Of a stretch of DNA of 64,000 bases, positions 32,107 to 39,113 are shown piece by piece. Both the position numbers and the translations under genes were made by a program. The stretch is from Thiobacillus sp. SCUT-2 (GTDB lineage Bacteria > Pseudomonadota > Gammaproteobacteria > Burkholderiales > Thiobacillaceae), in the NCBI RefSeq assembly GCF_035621355.1, contig NZ_CP141769.1, positions 2,480,001-2,544,000 on the forward strand. The letters are read 5' to 3'. A model generated the notes under the pieces. The model searched no databases, was not told the DNA's origin, and was given only the letters and a program-made list of their open reading frames with translations. The number at the start of each line of letters is the position of its first letter. The first letter of the stretch is position 1.

Positions 32107-32853
32107 TCACTCGTGGTGAACGACGAAGGCGAGTTCGGTGGTGAAATTGCCGATGCCGCGGTGGTTGGTCAGGGTCCAGCCGGCGTCCTTCAGGTGATGC
32201 GTCAACTGACGCGTCATCTCCGGATTGCCGCAGATCATGACGCGGTCGTGCGCGGGGTCGGGGGCAGGCAGGCCCAGGCGCCGCGACAACTCGCCGGAGC
32301 GAAACAGATCGCCGCCGCGTTCCGGCGTCGGGAAAGCTTCGCGCGTGACCGTCGGGACGTAGCGCAGCTGCGGGTTGGCGAGCGCCTCGATCTCCGATCG
32401 ATACGCCAGCTCGGCGACCGTACGGACCGAATGCACGAGCACCACGCTCTCATAGTGCGCATAAAGTCGCGGGTCGCGGATCAGGCTCATGAACGGGGCA
32501 AGCCCGGTGCCGGTCGCGAGCATGTAGAGGGTGCGTCCGGGCAGTACGTGATTGCGCGTCAGCGAGCCGGTCGCCTTGCTGTTGACCCACACGCTGTCGC
32601 CGGGGCGGATGTTCACGAGATGGCTGGTCAGGGGCCCGTCCGGCACGTGGATGCTGAGAAATTCCAGATGGTCATGGGCCGCCGTCGACACGATCGAATA
32701 CGCGCGCGCCACCAGCTTCCCTTCACGCTTCAGGCCAATGGTGACGAATTCGCCGTTCTCGAACACGAAATCCTGCGGCCGGCTGAGGGTGAAGCTGAAG
32801 GTCCGCTCCGACCACGGCCGGACCGATTGCACGGTTTGTTCGCTATAAGGCAT
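32107..32853 (-). CDS. fpr: ferredoxin--NADP+ reductase
   Basis: A 248-residue FNR-family enzyme: FAD motif RAYSIVST, NADP motif ATGTGLAPFMSLIRD, CGNPEM, and a C-terminal FVVHHE resembling the ending of bacterial Fpr. It moves electrons between NADPH and ferredoxin or flavodoxin. It lies 146 bases downstream of rtcB on the same strand; that gap shows no gene. Confidence 0.9.
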   Translation of the reverse strand: MPYSEQTVQSVRPWSERTFSFTLSRPQDFVFENGEFVTIGLKREGKLVARAYSIVSTAAHDHLEFLSIHVPDGPLTSHLVNIRPGDSVWVNSKATGSLTRNHVLPGRTLYMLATGTGLAPFMSLIRDPRLYAHYESVVLVHSVRTVAELAYRSEIEALANPQLRYVPTVTREAFPTPERGGDLFRSGELSRRLGLPAPDPAHDRVMICGNPEMTRQLTHHLKDAGWTLTNHRGIGNFTTELAFVVHHE

Positions 32854-32999
32854 GGGATGTCCTGACGTCTGAAGGGCGATCCCGGCAACGCGGGACGCGG
32901 TTGCGCACCTGCCGGACTTGAGCGGTTCGACGCCGCGCCACGGCGACAGTTCCACCCCGCCGCACGATTCCCCTTCTCGGGTTGGGGCGACCGTCCTGC

Positions 33000-34430
33000 T
33001 CACCCCTTGATGCAGACCAGCGGCTTCAGCTTCGCGACCTTGCGCGCCAGACCTGCGCGATCGGCTGCGTCGACGACCGCGCTGACGTCCTTGTAGGCGC
33101 CCGGCGCCTCCTCGGCCACGCCGCGCAGCGAGGGGCTGCGGATCAGCACCCCCTGGCTCGCCAGTTCGTCGACCAGCGCACGGCCGCGCCACTGGCGCGT
33201 TGCCTGATGGCGGCTCATCGCGCGCCCGGCACCATGACAGGCCGAGCTGAAGGCGCGCGTCCTGCCCGCCTCGGTGCCGACCAGGATGTAGGACGCCGTT
33301 CCCATGCTGCCGCCGATCAGCACGGGCTGGCCGACATCGCGAAGGTCGGCAGGCAGCGTCGGATGCCGGGGGCCGAAGGCGCGCGTCGCCCCCTTGCGGT
33401 GGACGTAGAGCTGGCGCGTGCGGCCGTCGACCGTATGCGGTTCGAGCTTGCAGGTATTGTGCGAGACGTCGTAGATCAGGCCCAGGTGCGTGCCGGGAAA
33501 GACATCGGCAAAGACCTCGCGTGCAAGATGGGTGATGACCTGCCGGTTGGCGAGCGCGCAGTTGATGGCCGCGCGCATGGCACCCAGATAGGCCTGCCCG
33601 AGCGGTGACTTGATGGGCGCGCAGGCGAGTTCGCGGTCGGGGAGCTCGATGCCGAAGCCCGGCGCGGCGACCACCATCTGCCGCAGGAACTCGGTGCCGA
33701 TCTGATGCCCAAGCCCGCGCGAACCGCAGTGGATGCTCACCACCACCTCGCCGACGCGCAGCCGCAAGCGGTCGGCCGCCTGGCTGTCGTAGATTTCGGC
33801 GATTTCCTGCAGTTCGAGGTAGTGATTGCCGGATCCGAGCGTGCCGATCTCGTCGCGCTGGCGGCGCTTGGCATGCTCGGAAACCTCGCCCGGCTCGGCG
33901 CCCGACATGCAGCCGTGCTCCTCGATGCGCTCGAGGTCGGCCGCGCTGCCATAGCCACGCTCGACCGCCCAGCGCGCGCCGCCGCGCAGCATCGCATCCA
34001 TCTCGTTGGCGTTCAGGCGCAGCTGGCCGGTGCTGCCGACACCGGCCGGAACATGCGCGAACAGATGGTCGGCGAGACGCTGCTTGCGCGGTTCCACCTC
34101 GGCGGCCGTGAGTCCCGTATGCAGGGTGCGCACGCCGCAGGAGATATCGAAGCCCACGCCGCCGGCCGACACGACGCCGCCCTCGTCGGCATCGAACGCC
34201 GCCACGCCGCCGATCGGGAAGCCGTAGCCCCAGTGCGCGTCGGGCATGGCGTAGGCCGCCTCGACGATGCCCGGCAGCGTCGCGACGTTGGTGAGCTGTT
34301 CCAACACCTTGTCGTCCATCTCGCGGATCAGGCCCGCATCCGCGAAGATCACCGCCGGCACGCGCATCCCGCCGACGGGCTCCACGCGCCATTCGACTTC
34401 CGACACCTGGCTGAACCGGGCAAGGTCCAT
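33000..34430 (-). CDS. rtcB: RtcB RNA-splicing ligase
   Basis: A 476-residue RtcB ligase. Signature segments are DAHWGYGFPIGGVAAFD, GGVGFDISCGVRT (metal Cys), GSGNHYLE, HCGSRGLGHQ, and SSACHGAGR with the His expected to carry GMP. It joins 2',3'-cyclic-phosphate or 3'-phosphate RNA ends to 5'-OH ends with GTP and Mn2+. The ATG is 17 bases after the cca-archease stop, so the ligase and its activating domain are in one operon. Confidence 0.93.
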   Translation of the reverse strand: MDLARFSQVSEVEWRVEPVGGMRVPAVIFADAGLIREMDDKVLEQLTNVATLPGIVEAAYAMPDAHWGYGFPIGGVAAFDADEGGVVSAGGVGFDISCGVRTLHTGLTAAEVEPRKQRLADHLFAHVPAGVGSTGQLRLNANEMDAMLRGGARWAVERGYGSAADLERIEEHGCMSGAEPGEVSEHAKRRQRDEIGTLGSGNHYLELQEIAEIYDSQAADRLRLRVGEVVVSIHCGSRGLGHQIGTEFLRQMVVAAPGFGIELPDRELACAPIKSPLGQAYLGAMRAAINCALANRQVITHLAREVFADVFPGTHLGLIYDVSHNTCKLEPHTVDGRTRQLYVHRKGATRAFGPRHPTLPADLRDVGQPVLIGGSMGTASYILVGTEAGRTRAFSSACHGAGRAMSRHQATRQWRGRALVDELASQGVLIRSPSLRGVAEEAPGAYKDVSAVVDAADRAGLARKVAKLKPLVCIKG

Positions 34431-34447
34431 CTCGGCCCCCGTATCTT

Positions 34448-36064
34448 CTAGACGTCCACCACGCACTGGGCGAGCCAGCGATCCGACTCGTCCTCTCTGA
34501 CTCTCAGCTCAGTATAGGTGGCGCCCTTGATCTCGACGGCCGGCTGGTGCCGTGCCGGATCGACCGTCTCGCCCCACGCGGTGCCGTGCAGGCGATGGCC
34601 TTCGAGGTTCACCTCGAAGCGGGCGAACAGCATATGGCGCGCCGCCATTTCGAGGACCAGCGCATTCAGCCAGTCGACCAGCAGCATTTCATTGTCCGGG
34701 GCTTCACACTGGACATCAACCGCCTCCCTCGGCACCACGCCGGCCGGGTCGGTCACCACCGCGGTCATCGCCAGCGCGGCCTGTTCGAACGCCGCGGCGA
34801 GCGTCGGCCCGATGCCGCGCACCCCGATGTCGGCCCCGTGCGGGAAATGTTGCCAGTGCGGCCGCAGTGCGCCAACCGCCTCGGCCCGCGCCTGGAACAC
34901 GGCCTCCCGGATGTGCGCAGGTGCGACGCGCTTCGCCACGGCACCCGCATCGACTGCCTGCGCCGCACGCAACGCCTGCCGCAGATGATCCAACGCCGGG
35001 AAAGGCCTTTCCTCGTAGCCCGGCCGCCCGCGAAAATCGCACTCGCACGCCTGCAGGAATTCCTCGAAGCGCGCTGGCCGGCGAAACGCATCGACACGCT
35101 CAAGCAGTTCGACGAGCGTGCCGGGGCGCAGCTCCAGCGCACGGTGCACCATGCCATGCTCGCGCGCGACCGCGACGGCGAGCTCGCGGCATTCGGCCGG
35201 CACGCGAATGCGATCGCAGAGCGCGCGCACCAGGTCGACGGCCCGGGCTTCGTGGCCGACATGACGGGGCCAAAGCTCCGGTGGCGTCGCCCCCTTGCCG
35301 AGATCGTGCGTCAGCGCCGCGAAGCGGACCGGGAGGCTCAATCCCTGCTGCGCGGCCCAGTCGACGACACGCATCACGTGCACGCCGGTATCGATCTCGG
35401 GATGGTGCTGCGCGGGCTGCGGCACTCCGAACAGGCGATCGATCTCGGGAAACAGCCGGGCCAGCGCGCCGCACGCGCGCAGCGTCTCGAACATGCGCGA
35501 GGGTCGCGCCTCCATGAGCCCGCGCGCGATCTCCTGCCAGACGCGCTCCGGCACCAGCGCGTCGACTTCGCCGTTGTCGACCATCTGGCGCATCAGGGCA
35601 TGCGTTTCGGGCGCGACCGAAAAATCGGTGAAGCGCGCGGCAAAGCGAGCCACCCGCAGGATGCGCACGGGATCTTCGGCGAAGGCTTCACTGACGTGAC
35701 GGAACACCTTGTCGGCCAAATCCTGCCGGCCACCGTAGGGATCGACGAGCGTGCCGTTCTCGTCCTCCGCGATCGCGTTGATGGTGAGATCGCGCCGGCG
35801 CAGGTCCTCCTCGAGCGTGACGTCCGGCGCGGCATACACGGTGAATCCCTTGTAGCCGCGTCCCGATTTGCGCTCGGTACGCGCAAGCGCGTACTCCTCG
35901 CGCGTCCGCGGATGCAGGAAGACAGGGAAGTCCTTGCCGACCGGGAGAAACCCTTGCGCAACCATGTCGTCCGGGGTCGCGCCGACCACGACGTGATCGC
36001 GATCGGCCACTGGCAGTCCCAGCAACCGGTCCCGCACGGCGCCGCCGACGACATAGCTCTTCAT
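34448..36064 (-). CDS. cca: CCA-adding tRNA nucleotidyltransferase fused to an archease domain
   Basis: A single 538-residue open frame. Residues 1 to about 398 are a bacterial multifunctional CCA enzyme: [10 protein letters not shown], the Asp21/Asp23 metal pair, [12 protein letters not shown], and an HD domain with His253-Asp254 (LTHDLGKG). In E. coli Cca that HD domain has phosphohydrolase and 2',3'-cyclic phosphodiesterase activity. Residues ~402-538 are a complete archease: [12 protein letters not shown] with metal Asp412, [25 protein letters not shown], and a terminal WLAQCVVDV with Asp537. Archease activates RtcB, encoded 17 bases downstream. The join has no frameshift or low-complexity linker. 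Confidence 0.93.
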
Positions 36065-36079
36065 GGCGGCGCGATGGAA

Positions 36080-37117
36080 TTACCGGTGTGCGCTCTCGCG
36101 ATAGTCCTCGTACCGGGCGCGCGGCGTGTCGGCACGCAGGTACTCGGGGGCGATCGCCTCGAGCGAGGCCGGCTGGAAGGCAAACACCGCGGGCCAGCCG
36201 CCGCTGCACACGTTGTCGGTGGTCATGGCGTAGTAGTTGTCGCGCGTCATCAGCTTCCTGCCAGGCTTGAACTCGAGCGCCCATGCCTGGAAGTACGACA
36301 TCCAGGGGCCGAGCGCGACGATGCTGCGCTTCTTGCCGATGACGTTGCCGACGTAGGCCACGAGTTCGCCCAGCGTGTAGGTCTTAGGGCCGCAAAGCGG
36401 GTACGTCTGGCCGAAGGTGGCGGGGTTGTCGAGGCTGTCGGCGAAGGCGTGCGCGACGTCTTCCACGTAGACGGGGGCGAAGCGGCTCCCGGCTGCCGCG
36501 AGGGGCACGACCGGAAAGGTCTTGAGCAGGCGCGCGAACATCGACAGGAAGGAATCGCCCCGGCCGAATATCACGGACGGGCGGAAGATCGTGACGTCGA
36601 GGCCGTAGCCATGGATGAACTTGGGGCCGTTGAGGTACCAGTTCTCGTGCTCGCTGTGGCGCATGCCCGCCTCGCGCACCAGCGCTTCGCCGATGCCCTT
36701 GGAACGCTGGTAGGCGGAGCGTGAATTCGGATCGGCTCCCAGCGCGCTCATGTGCAGCAGGCGGTGCACGCCCGCCTCGCCCATGGCGTGGATGAGCTTG
36801 CGCACCAGCTCGACATGGACCTTCTGGAAATCGCCCCGCCGCGCGCTCGGCAGGTCGATGCGGCCGACCTTGTCCTCGTGGAGGATGCCGACCAGGTTGA
36901 TGACCGCGTCCATGCCGCGGAAATTCTGGATCAGGGCCTGCTGGTCGTGGACGTCGGCCTCGACCACCTCCACCGTCGGCAGCAGGATCAGTTCCTTGGC
37001 CATCTCGCGGCGGTGGGAGAGCACGCGAACGTGGAGCCCGCGCGCGGCGAGCTGGCTGACCAGCTGGGTGCCGACGAAGCCGGACCCGCCGAGGATGCAG
37101 ATGCGTTGAATCTTCAT
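36080..37117 (-). CDS. NDUFA9-like NAD-binding epimerase/dehydratase family protein
   Basis: A 345-residue extended SDR protein with the Rossmann motif ILGGSGFVGTQL, INLVGIL and SALGADPNSRSAYQRSKG, a pattern of the complex I NDUFA9-like subgroup. Catalytic Tyr/Lys (YQRSK) are present. Betaproteobacterial members often sit beside cca and slt, as here; their role is unclear. It lies 15 bases upstream of the cca-archease gene. Confidence 0.83.
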   Translation of the reverse strand: MKIQRICILGGSGFVGTQLVSQLAARGLHVRVLSHRREMAKELILLPTVEVVEADVHDQQALIQNFRGMDAVINLVGILHEDKVGRIDLPSARRGDFQKVHVELVRKLIHAMGEAGVHRLLHMSALGADPNSRSAYQRSKGIGEALVREAGMRHSEHENWYLNGPKFIHGYGLDVTIFRPSVIFGRGDSFLSMFARLLKTFPVVPLAAAGSRFAPVYVEDVAHAFADSLDNPATFGQTYPLCGPKTYTLGELVAYVGNVIGKKRSIVALGPWMSYFQAWALEFKPGRKLMTRDNYYAMTTDNVCSGGWPAVFAFQPASLEAIAPEYLRADTPRARYEDYRESAHR

Positions 37118-37154
37118 GTCAGGACTGGAAACGGAGTGGGAAGCAAGGCGGATT

Positions 37155-39113
37155 CTAATCGTCCGGCTGTTCGACTTCCAGCGAGGTATCCGGCTCCGTC
37201 GCCGGTACGGCGATCTTGCGCGCCGGAATCATGCCCAGCCGGTCGGTCAGCAGCGAGGACGGCTGGCCGAAGCGGGCAGCATAGTACATGGCGTTGCTCA
37301 TCACCTTCTTCACGTAGTCGCGCGTCTCGGCGAACGGGATGGCCTCGATGTAGACGGCGGCCTCCATGGGCTGCGTGCCGCGCCAGCGCTGGGCTCGCGC
37401 GGGGCCGGCATTGTAGGCTGCGGTCGCCAGCACGGGCGAGCCGTCGAGCGAGGACTGCACGTGCTTGAGATAGTAGGCGCCGAACTGGATATTTGTGGCC
37501 GGGTCCCGCATCTCGTCGACATGGAAGCGCCGGATGCCGAGCCGCTGGGCGATCCAGCGTGCGGTGGCCGGCATGATCTGCATCAAGCCCGAGGCGCCGA
37601 CGCTTGAGCGTGCCACGTTCACGAAGCGGCTCTCCTGCCGCATCAGGCCGAAGACCCAGGCCTCGTCGATGCCGTTTTCGCGCGCGGCCTTCTGCGCCTC
37701 GGCGCGATACGGCGCCAGGAAGCGCAACTCGAAGTCGTGCAGTTCGCGCGTCCGCTCCGCCGTCTTGATCGCGCAGTCGTACCACCCTGCCCGCCGGGCG
37801 AGTTCGGCAGCCGCCAGCAGCTGGATATCCGAGAATTCGCGCGTCGCCCAGTCCCACTCGAGGGTGGCGTCGTAGCGCAATCCCAGTTCATGCAGCGCCA
37901 TCGCACGCACGATGCCCGCCTGCCGGGCGACGGCGGCGATATCGTCGCCCCCCGCCTTGATGTTGATGGCCGGCGCCTGCATCACCGGCCCCAGCTCTTC
38001 CTGCGCGAGCTGCCCGTAGTAATGATGCTCGCGCGAGAGCGGCAGCAGCAGCGCATTCGCCGCCGCACGCCGGCCGTTTTCCAGCAGGGCGCGTGCCAGC
38101 CAGTAGCGCCAGGCCGGCTGCTGGCGGGTGGCGTCGCCCATGCTCTCGATGGCGCGCTGCACCGTTTTCCAGTCCCCCGCCAGCAGGGCGGCGCGCACCC
38201 ACCATTCACGCTGGAAGTCGCTCACCGCGACGTCCCCTGCCTGCCGGAACCAGGTCAGCGCGCCGGCCTCGTGGCGGCGCGCGGCCCAGGTCGCAAGCCG
38301 CGCCCAGGCGGTGCGCAAATCGTCCGCATTGAGCTGGGAGGCGAACTTGCGCAGGGCGCGCTCGGCCGCCGCGGAGTCGCGACGCGCCAACTGGTCGAGC
38401 GCGTAGAGCGCGATCTCGCGATCGCCCCGCTGCCCGAGGTCGAGGCTTGCGCCGTTCAGCAGGCGCGCGGGGTCGCGGGTGGCCTGATCCAGCCGCACAG
38501 GGGATAGCCGCTGCGCCTCCGGCAGTGCGCTCGCAACGGACTTGGCCACGCCCGGGTTGCCGGCTTCCAGGGCCAGCCGGATGCGTCGCCAGATGTCGGC
38601 CTCACCGAGGAGGCCGGCCTCCATCAGCTGCTGAAACAGCGGGCTGCAGGCGGATGGCATGTCGCGTCCCGTGTACCACAACGCGATTGCCTCCTTCTCG
38701 TGGCTGCGATTCCCCAGCGCCCATTCCGCCCGATAGGCATAGCAGCGCAGCATGGTGTCCGGCTTGACGAGGCGCACGTACTCGCCGAGGTACGCCGGCC
38801 ACGCCTGGCGCGCGCCGAGCGACTTCAGCCAGTCGGCGCGCACGGCCTCGGCCAGGCGGCTGCCCGGGTAGCGCGCCAGGAAGTCGGCGATGCGCGCATC
38901 GTCGGTGCGGCCCGACAGCATCAGCTGCCAGTATTCGACATAGGGCGCCAGGACATGGTCGGGGGGAACGTCGCGTGCCGCCCGTGACAGTTCGGTGGGC
39001 TTGCGGGCGGCATAGGCCTCCTGCGCGCGCTGCACGGCGTCATCGCCCGGCGCCGCCCACACGGCCGTCACACTCATCACGGCCAGCAGGAAAAGAAGAA
39101 CGGATCGAAGCAT
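37155..39113 (-). CDS. slt: soluble lytic murein transglycosylase
   Basis: A 652-residue precursor with a signal peptide (to about VWA-APG), a long helical-repeat ring domain, and a C-terminal SLT domain. The catalytic Glu is in GLMRQESRF, followed by SSVGASGLMQIMPATARW and AYNAGPARAQRW. It cleaves the MurNAc-GlcNAc bond of peptidoglycan with anhydro-ring formation, feeding muropeptide recycling. The start MLRSVLLF is chosen since it begins the signal peptide. Confidence 0.92.
   Translation of the reverse strand: MLRSVLLFLLAVMSVTAVWAAPGDDAVQRAQEAYAARKPTELSRAARDVPPDHVLAPYVEYWQLMLSGRTDDARIADFLARYPGSRLAEAVRADWLKSLGARQAWPAYLGEYVRLVKPDTMLRCYAYRAEWALGNRSHEKEAIALWYTGRDMPSACSPLFQQLMEAGLLGEADIWRRIRLALEAGNPGVAKSVASALPEAQRLSPVRLDQATRDPARLLNGASLDLGQRGDREIALYALDQLARRDSAAAERALRKFASQLNADDLRTAWARLATWAARRHEAGALTWFRQAGDVAVSDFQREWWVRAALLAGDWKTVQRAIESMGDATRQQPAWRYWLARALLENGRRAAANALLLPLSREHHYYGQLAQEELGPVMQAPAINIKAGGDDIAAVARQAGIVRAMALHELGLRYDATLEWDWATREFSDIQLLAAAELARRAGWYDCAIKTAERTRELHDFELRFLAPYRAEAQKAARENGIDEAWVFGLMRQESRFVNVARSSVGASGLMQIMPATARWIAQRLGIRRFHVDEMRDPATNIQFGAYYLKHVQSSLDGSPVLATAAYNAGPARAQRWRGTQPMEAAVYIEAIPFAETRDYVKKVMSNAMYYAARFGQPSSLLTDRLGMIPARKIAVPATEPDTSLEVEQPDD

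Follow-up and report, generated by a model that had tools for sequence, protein, structure and literature searches.

Does a gene of Thiobacillus sp. SCUT-2 join a tRNA CCA-adding enzyme (Cca) to archease, the partner of the RNA ligase RtcB, in a single polypeptide, and if so, what might such a join do? Here we report on the 64,000-nucleotide stretch of its genome that holds this gene (the window), and on the same genes in a sample of 56 Thiobacillus genomes, many of them incomplete. One uninterrupted frame of 538 codons lies on the minus strand at 34448..36064, with an ATG start at 36064 and a TAG stop at 34450-34448; the start region is common to the 13 complete fused copies. The initial annotation had described this frame, giving no strand, as a full Cca with its HD site joined near position 34861 to a complete archease, and our searches bear out both the composition and the place of the join. 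The window's genome is a single contig of 3.01 Mb with one archease.

Residues 1-400 (34865..36064, minus strand) form the Cca part, which matches NF008137 with 650.7 bits (cut-off 451; model positions 1-403 of 409), as well as PF01743, PF12627 and PF01966. Its head carries D21, D23 and R90 R91 D92, which we take to be the catalytic residues as in the rest of the family; a PolyA_pol_RNAbd domain spans 147-210, and the HD domain holds H229, H253, D254 and D325, the last of which is presumably the final HD ligand. The archease part follows as residues 403-538 (34451..34858, minus strand; H409, D412, K513, D537, V538). Residues 404-538 cover PF01951 from end to end (profile positions 1-136 of 136; 136.7 bits, cut-off 25), and phmmer matches this part to the solved archease 4n2p_A with an E-value of 8.6e-23. 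The junction, residues 401-402 (34859..34864, minus strand), sits between the archease Trp and the last Cca helix, predicted by an AlphaFold model at residues 382-398, and the join as a whole falls at about residues 400-403, or about 34856-34866 of the window. Fused relatives have 0-5 extra residues between this helix and the Trp, with the frame kept open. Most of Cca is modelled with confidence by AlphaFold, while pLDDT block means over archease residues 401-538 are about 27-66 from a shallow alignment; the identity of the C-terminal part as archease rests on sequence. Opposite the fusion gene, a 725-aa open frame on the plus strand (34547-36724) is most likely a high-G+C shadow frame.

The alignment with the multifunctional Cca of E. 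coli (L175) has 228 identical positions and the head and HD residues are kept, His253-Asp254 of the fusion corresponding to His255-Asp256; the Asp of the E. coli FHDLIH motif is Gly in the fusion protein. E. coli Cca, annotated as a nucleotidyltransferase, 2',3'-cyclic phosphodiesterase, 2' nucleotidase and phosphatase, ends after 412 residues without an archease, whereas the protein described here continues into one. For the archease part, an alignment with 4n2p, with a one-residue numbering offset that we inferred, places counterparts of P. horikoshii archease H9, D12, K117, D141 and the final residue in the fusion. In the available text of PMC3973293, archease activates P. horikoshii RtcB, and this activation is drastically reduced by D12A, by D141A and by loss of I142. 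Archease of P. horikoshii and of human is a separate 16-kDa protein, in contrast to the window's, whose N-terminus is joined to Cca.

Purifying selection acts on the Cca and archease halves alike. Across the 78 pairs formed by the 13 complete fused genes, the median dN/dS (Nei-Gojobori) is 0.147 (0.098-0.201) for the Cca part and 0.191 (0.117-0.332) for the archease part. The linker, about a dozen codons, is variable and weakly constrained (0.418 over 73 pairs, those whose ratio was finite). The residues highlighted by the initial annotation (His253-Asp254, Asp412 and Asp537-Val538) are present and invariant in 14/14 fused copies, as are H229, D325, H409 and K513; H406 differs in one copy. In the 13 complete copies, aligned with E. 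coli Cca, the head residues (DxD, RRD, GG) are likewise invariant.

RtcB, which the initial annotation had named as the partner of archease, turns out to be encoded by the next gene downstream (476 aa; 33000..34430, minus strand), beginning 17 bases past the fusion stop codon. A slightly longer reading of this frame matches PF01139 at 1e-170, and the best solved relative of the protein is RtcB of P. horikoshii (517 bits over residues 7-476). Downstream of rtcB lies a gene for a ferredoxin-NADP reductase-like protein of 248 aa (32107..32853, minus strand; PF00175, PF00970), and upstream of the fusion, with 15 bases between them, one for an NAD-dependent epimerase-like protein of 345 aa (36080..37117, minus strand; PF01370, 5.5e-20). 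A promoter and terminator scan of 32800-37400 found neither. The arrangement resembles the rtcB-archease operons of Desai et al. (2014), where archease stands directly before rtcB and an occasional third member, in the text available to us, is a tRNA m5C methyltransferase gene; here the additional member is cca, and it is fused (PMC3973293).

Archease was found in 27 of the 56 Thiobacillus genomes, fused to cca in 14 and separate in 13, and was not seen in the other 29; when the count is restricted to genomes with a completeness of 90% or more and a contamination of 5% or less, 14/27 have it. The fused set comprises G000 (the window's genome), G020, G025, G004, G029, G031, G015, G011, G066, G079, G061, G073, G075 and G074, of which G000 and G011 are single-contig assemblies. 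The fused frame is full length in all but G074, where it is cut by the start of the contig, and archease in the 13 other fused genomes is 66-79% identical to the window's. Twelve of the 13 separate archeases follow a common order: cca, a gene for a lipoprotein-like protein of 137-138 aa, archease, rtcB (in one of these, G008, cca is broken by a frame change). The remaining genome, G067, has archease and rtcB on a different contig from cca (L144, 4179-6039), and the two are more divergent, sharing 64% and 73% identity with those of the window. The alternative raised by the initial annotation, that close relatives might have two separate proteins, holds for these 13 of 56 genomes, 12 with archease beside cca and one with it elsewhere, and does not hold for the 14 that keep the in-frame join. 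No cca orthologue was found in three of the 29 archease-less genomes (G001, G003, G072), so the cca locus is probably missing from those assemblies.

RtcB lies directly downstream of archease in 27/27 archease-bearing Thiobacillus genomes, fused and unfused alike. It is present in 30/56 genomes overall, three of them (G072, G014, G010) without archease; in G010 (L157) and G014 (L158) RtcB is of a divergent type, about 370 aa long, and is encoded elsewhere in the genome. The small lipoprotein-like gene between cca and archease (L034:6359-6772, L051:6394-6810, and in 10 other unfused genomes) has no Pfam match in the two copies scanned, and a relative with 46% identity to its product is encoded elsewhere in the window's genome (G000:C1:2328424-2328822).

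Searching for the two-domain architecture across genomes gave a divided answer, with the join in 14/56 Thiobacillus genomes and none seen in samples of the order, family and phylum outside the genus or among plasmids, phages and viral contigs. In the order sample of 399 genomes, full-length matches among those listed came only from three of the four sampled Thiobacillus. In the family sample, 52/117 genomes have archease, 25 of them outside Thiobacillus, and going by the length of their open frames (139-212 aa in 24), 0/25 of these archeases are fused. A 487-aa open frame in G849 was considered as a fusion and rejected on reading as a shadow frame. In the phylum sample, 9/398 genomes have archease, including the window's own, and the other eight archeases have no cca within about 1.5 kb on each side. 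At 15 unfused archease loci from 14 genomes (G055 twice), cca occurs in none within the flanking stretch examined, and rtcB is present there in 14. Records covering 80% of the fusion protein numbered zero among plasmids (106 with a partial match) and zero among phages (442 with a partial match), and viral contigs queried with archease gave none. The initial annotation knew of no described CCA-archease fusion; we likewise found no account of one in the open-access literature searched, and an earlier mention in subscription papers is possible.

We consider it probable that the fusion is a single bifunctional tRNA-repair protein, which would both mend 3' ends and activate RtcB. CCA is already encoded by 44/44 tRNA genes found in the window's genome by an Rfam search, which genes with large introns could escape, so Cca probably repairs ends and is not needed for their first synthesis. 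As we picture it, the Cca half would bind tRNA with damaged 3' ends, the HD domain could strip 2',3'-cyclic or 3' phosphates, as the annotation of E. coli Cca has it, and Cca would rebuild the CCA, while the archease half would act on the RtcB encoded in the same operon. The HD domain may compete with RtcB for 2',3'-cyclic phosphate ends, as the initial annotation proposed, or may instead prepare CCA-clipped ends. Cca is attached at the archease N-terminus, which lies within a few residues of the metal Asp, and would therefore be placed close to the active site of RtcB. A single chain would fix the ratio of Cca to archease and place an RtcB activator on a tRNA-binding protein, and the fusion could serve both kinds of damage, CCA-end clipping and anticodon-loop cleavage. 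The sequences show the single frame with its two complete domains, their conserved catalytic residues, the purifying selection, the missing start signals for free archease, the adjacent rtcB and the CCA-encoding tRNA genes; both activities in the fusion, a physical link with RtcB and a benefit of the join are what we infer.

To our knowledge, the roles of archease and RtcB in bacteria are poorly known. A natural join of an RtcB activator to a tRNA 3'-end repair enzyme hints independently at damaged tRNA as the substrate, and the coexistence of fused, split and archease-less genomes in Thiobacillus makes the idea directly testable. Both kinds of damage have been reported elsewhere. In Salmonella, according to the accessible part of PMC7790460, anticodon-loop cleavage of tRNA leaves cyclic phosphates and RtcB possibly mends the break. 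In human cells, CCA-end cleavage leaves a cyclic phosphate that would have to be removed before the CCA-adding enzyme could act, an activity that the available text does not attribute to that enzyme (PMC8920990); in E. coli-type Cca, removal of a cyclic phosphate is an annotated function of the HD domain. RtcB and a CCA-adding enzyme are also both listed as tRNA-repair functions of jumbo phages, and an archease fusion is not among the features mentioned in the excerpt of that source (PMC7824862).

Counting against the bifunctional reading, 13/56 genomes manage with separate genes and 29/56 show no archease; since such split and archease-less relatives exist, the join is not essential. The variable linker also counts against it, as does the Gly in place of the FHDLIH Asp, which may affect the HD activity, and the chain may be cut by proteolysis after translation. 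A more far-reaching version, in which the Cca half would capture damaged tRNA and restore its 3' end through its HD and nucleotidyltransferase sites and the tethered archease would charge RtcB on that same tRNA, seems to us unlikely. Were such coupling to exist, one complex would mend the clipped CCA ends and nicked anticodon loops left by a ribonuclease attack, and the Cca half would steer which broken RNAs RtcB joins.

Whether the join brings any benefit is a separate matter from bifunctionality. A serious rival, which we regard as nearly an even call, is that the fusion is neutral: a deletion within an operon would have removed a stop, a small gene and a start, leaving two halves that keep their old jobs and gain nothing from being joined. 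This account is compatible with a bifunctional protein. It fits the order of cca, small gene, archease and rtcB in 12/12 unfused neighbours and the lack of the small gene in the fused form, a junction close to the native termini of the two proteins with a freely varying linker, and a cca tree on which archease and rtcB are lost repeatedly. The retention of the join in 14 genomes, across archeases as divergent as those given above, argues for more than neutrality, although inertia could also explain it. Moreover, the trees leave the polarity undecided, so the deletion itself stays an assumption.

A second account reverses the direction: of the two forms at this locus the fused one would be older, with the split one arising once the small gene came in between. 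We find this plausible, at somewhat under even chances. In trees rooted outside the locus, a fused genome (G011 or G015, depending on the tree) branches first with weak support, and the root is affected by long branches. On archease plus rtcB trees, built once without G035 (whose rtcB was only partly covered) and once with it, neither the fused genomes as a single clade (AU p 0.361 and 0.173) nor the split genomes as a single clade (0.341 and 0.342) are rejected, so that fusion by deletion and fission by insertion both stand. The cca tree does reject a single fused clade (AU p 1.5e-6), as expected from the losses and split rows nested among the fused ones. On this tree, the fused, split and absent states need 10 changes, and fused and split alone need four.

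Only 8-10 bases separate the cca stop from the start of the reductase gene in seven archease-less genomes (G007, G012, G019, G021, G026, G028, G032), and 17 bases in archease-less G018; given this tight spacing in eight genomes, archease and rtcB were probably inserted elsewhere in the genus or cleanly lost. Where archease-less genomes fall among fused and split ones, the gap is 110-169 bases (G005, G013, G014, G016, G033, G060, G077); in G009 and G010 the flanking stretch examined showed no reductase gene.

The initial annotation had named a stop at the junction in a close relative as evidence against the join. Such a stop was found in G014, where the cca frame ends at a TGA aligned with the junction Trp codon (L010), but it comes with a decayed archease: this TGA opens a 51-base match to the archease start of G020, alike at 43/51 positions, with a score of 62 against a shuffled maximum of 30. 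As archease is reduced there to a 51-base relic, the stop points to loss and not to a false join. With the relic lying behind the junction stop, the fused form most likely preceded archease loss in the G014 lineage, which is consistent with the greater age of the fused form. The same test was applied to 26 archease-less genomes (25 Thiobacillus and one outgroup; G070, whose contig ends inside cca, was left out), and the other 25 showed no relic like that of G014. A candidate in G033 was rejected, with a score of 34 against 33 at an unrelated place.

It is also conceivable that free archease is made as well, by internal initiation or cleavage, and that the fusion mainly serves to co-express archease; we hold this to be quite improbable. 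An in-frame GTG or TTG occurs within 90 bases before the archease domain in 12/14 fused genes, and in G025 an ATG also stands two codons ahead of the archease Trp. These codons are rarely accompanied by the signals of a start, however. We scanned the 90 bases ahead of the archease domain, and on as far as D412, for a start codon with a ribosome-binding-like motif 4-11 bases away, and 12/14 fused genes had no such pair; in the other two a bare AGG stands 11 bases from a TTG, a weak signal even there. In unfused archease genes, 10/12 have a start with such a motif, and an ATG precedes D412 in this stretch in 9/12, compared with 1/14 of the fused genes. In G079 the stretch reaching from 90 bases ahead of the domain to 32 after it holds no in-frame start, and the recurrent ATG at +27 lies past the metal Asp, so that its product would lack that residue. 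A start signal for free archease is thus mostly absent from the fused genes, in keeping with the bifunctional reading.

That the join is an assembly or sequencing artefact is extremely improbable: we found no support for it, the same join occurs in 14/56 genomes, two of them single-contig, and purifying selection acts on each half. The same in-frame join in those 14 genomes, where variable linkers keep the frame open, also led us to reject chance or a single read error.

Apart from the fused and split genes, 6/56 Thiobacillus genomes contain a shortened Cca paralogue of about 290-310 aa without the nucleotidyltransferase head. One copy, at L159:2540-3406 (minus strand), has a degenerate HD motif and no Pfam match; the others lie on G067:C21, G063:C12, G024:C99, G032:C52 and G022:C347.
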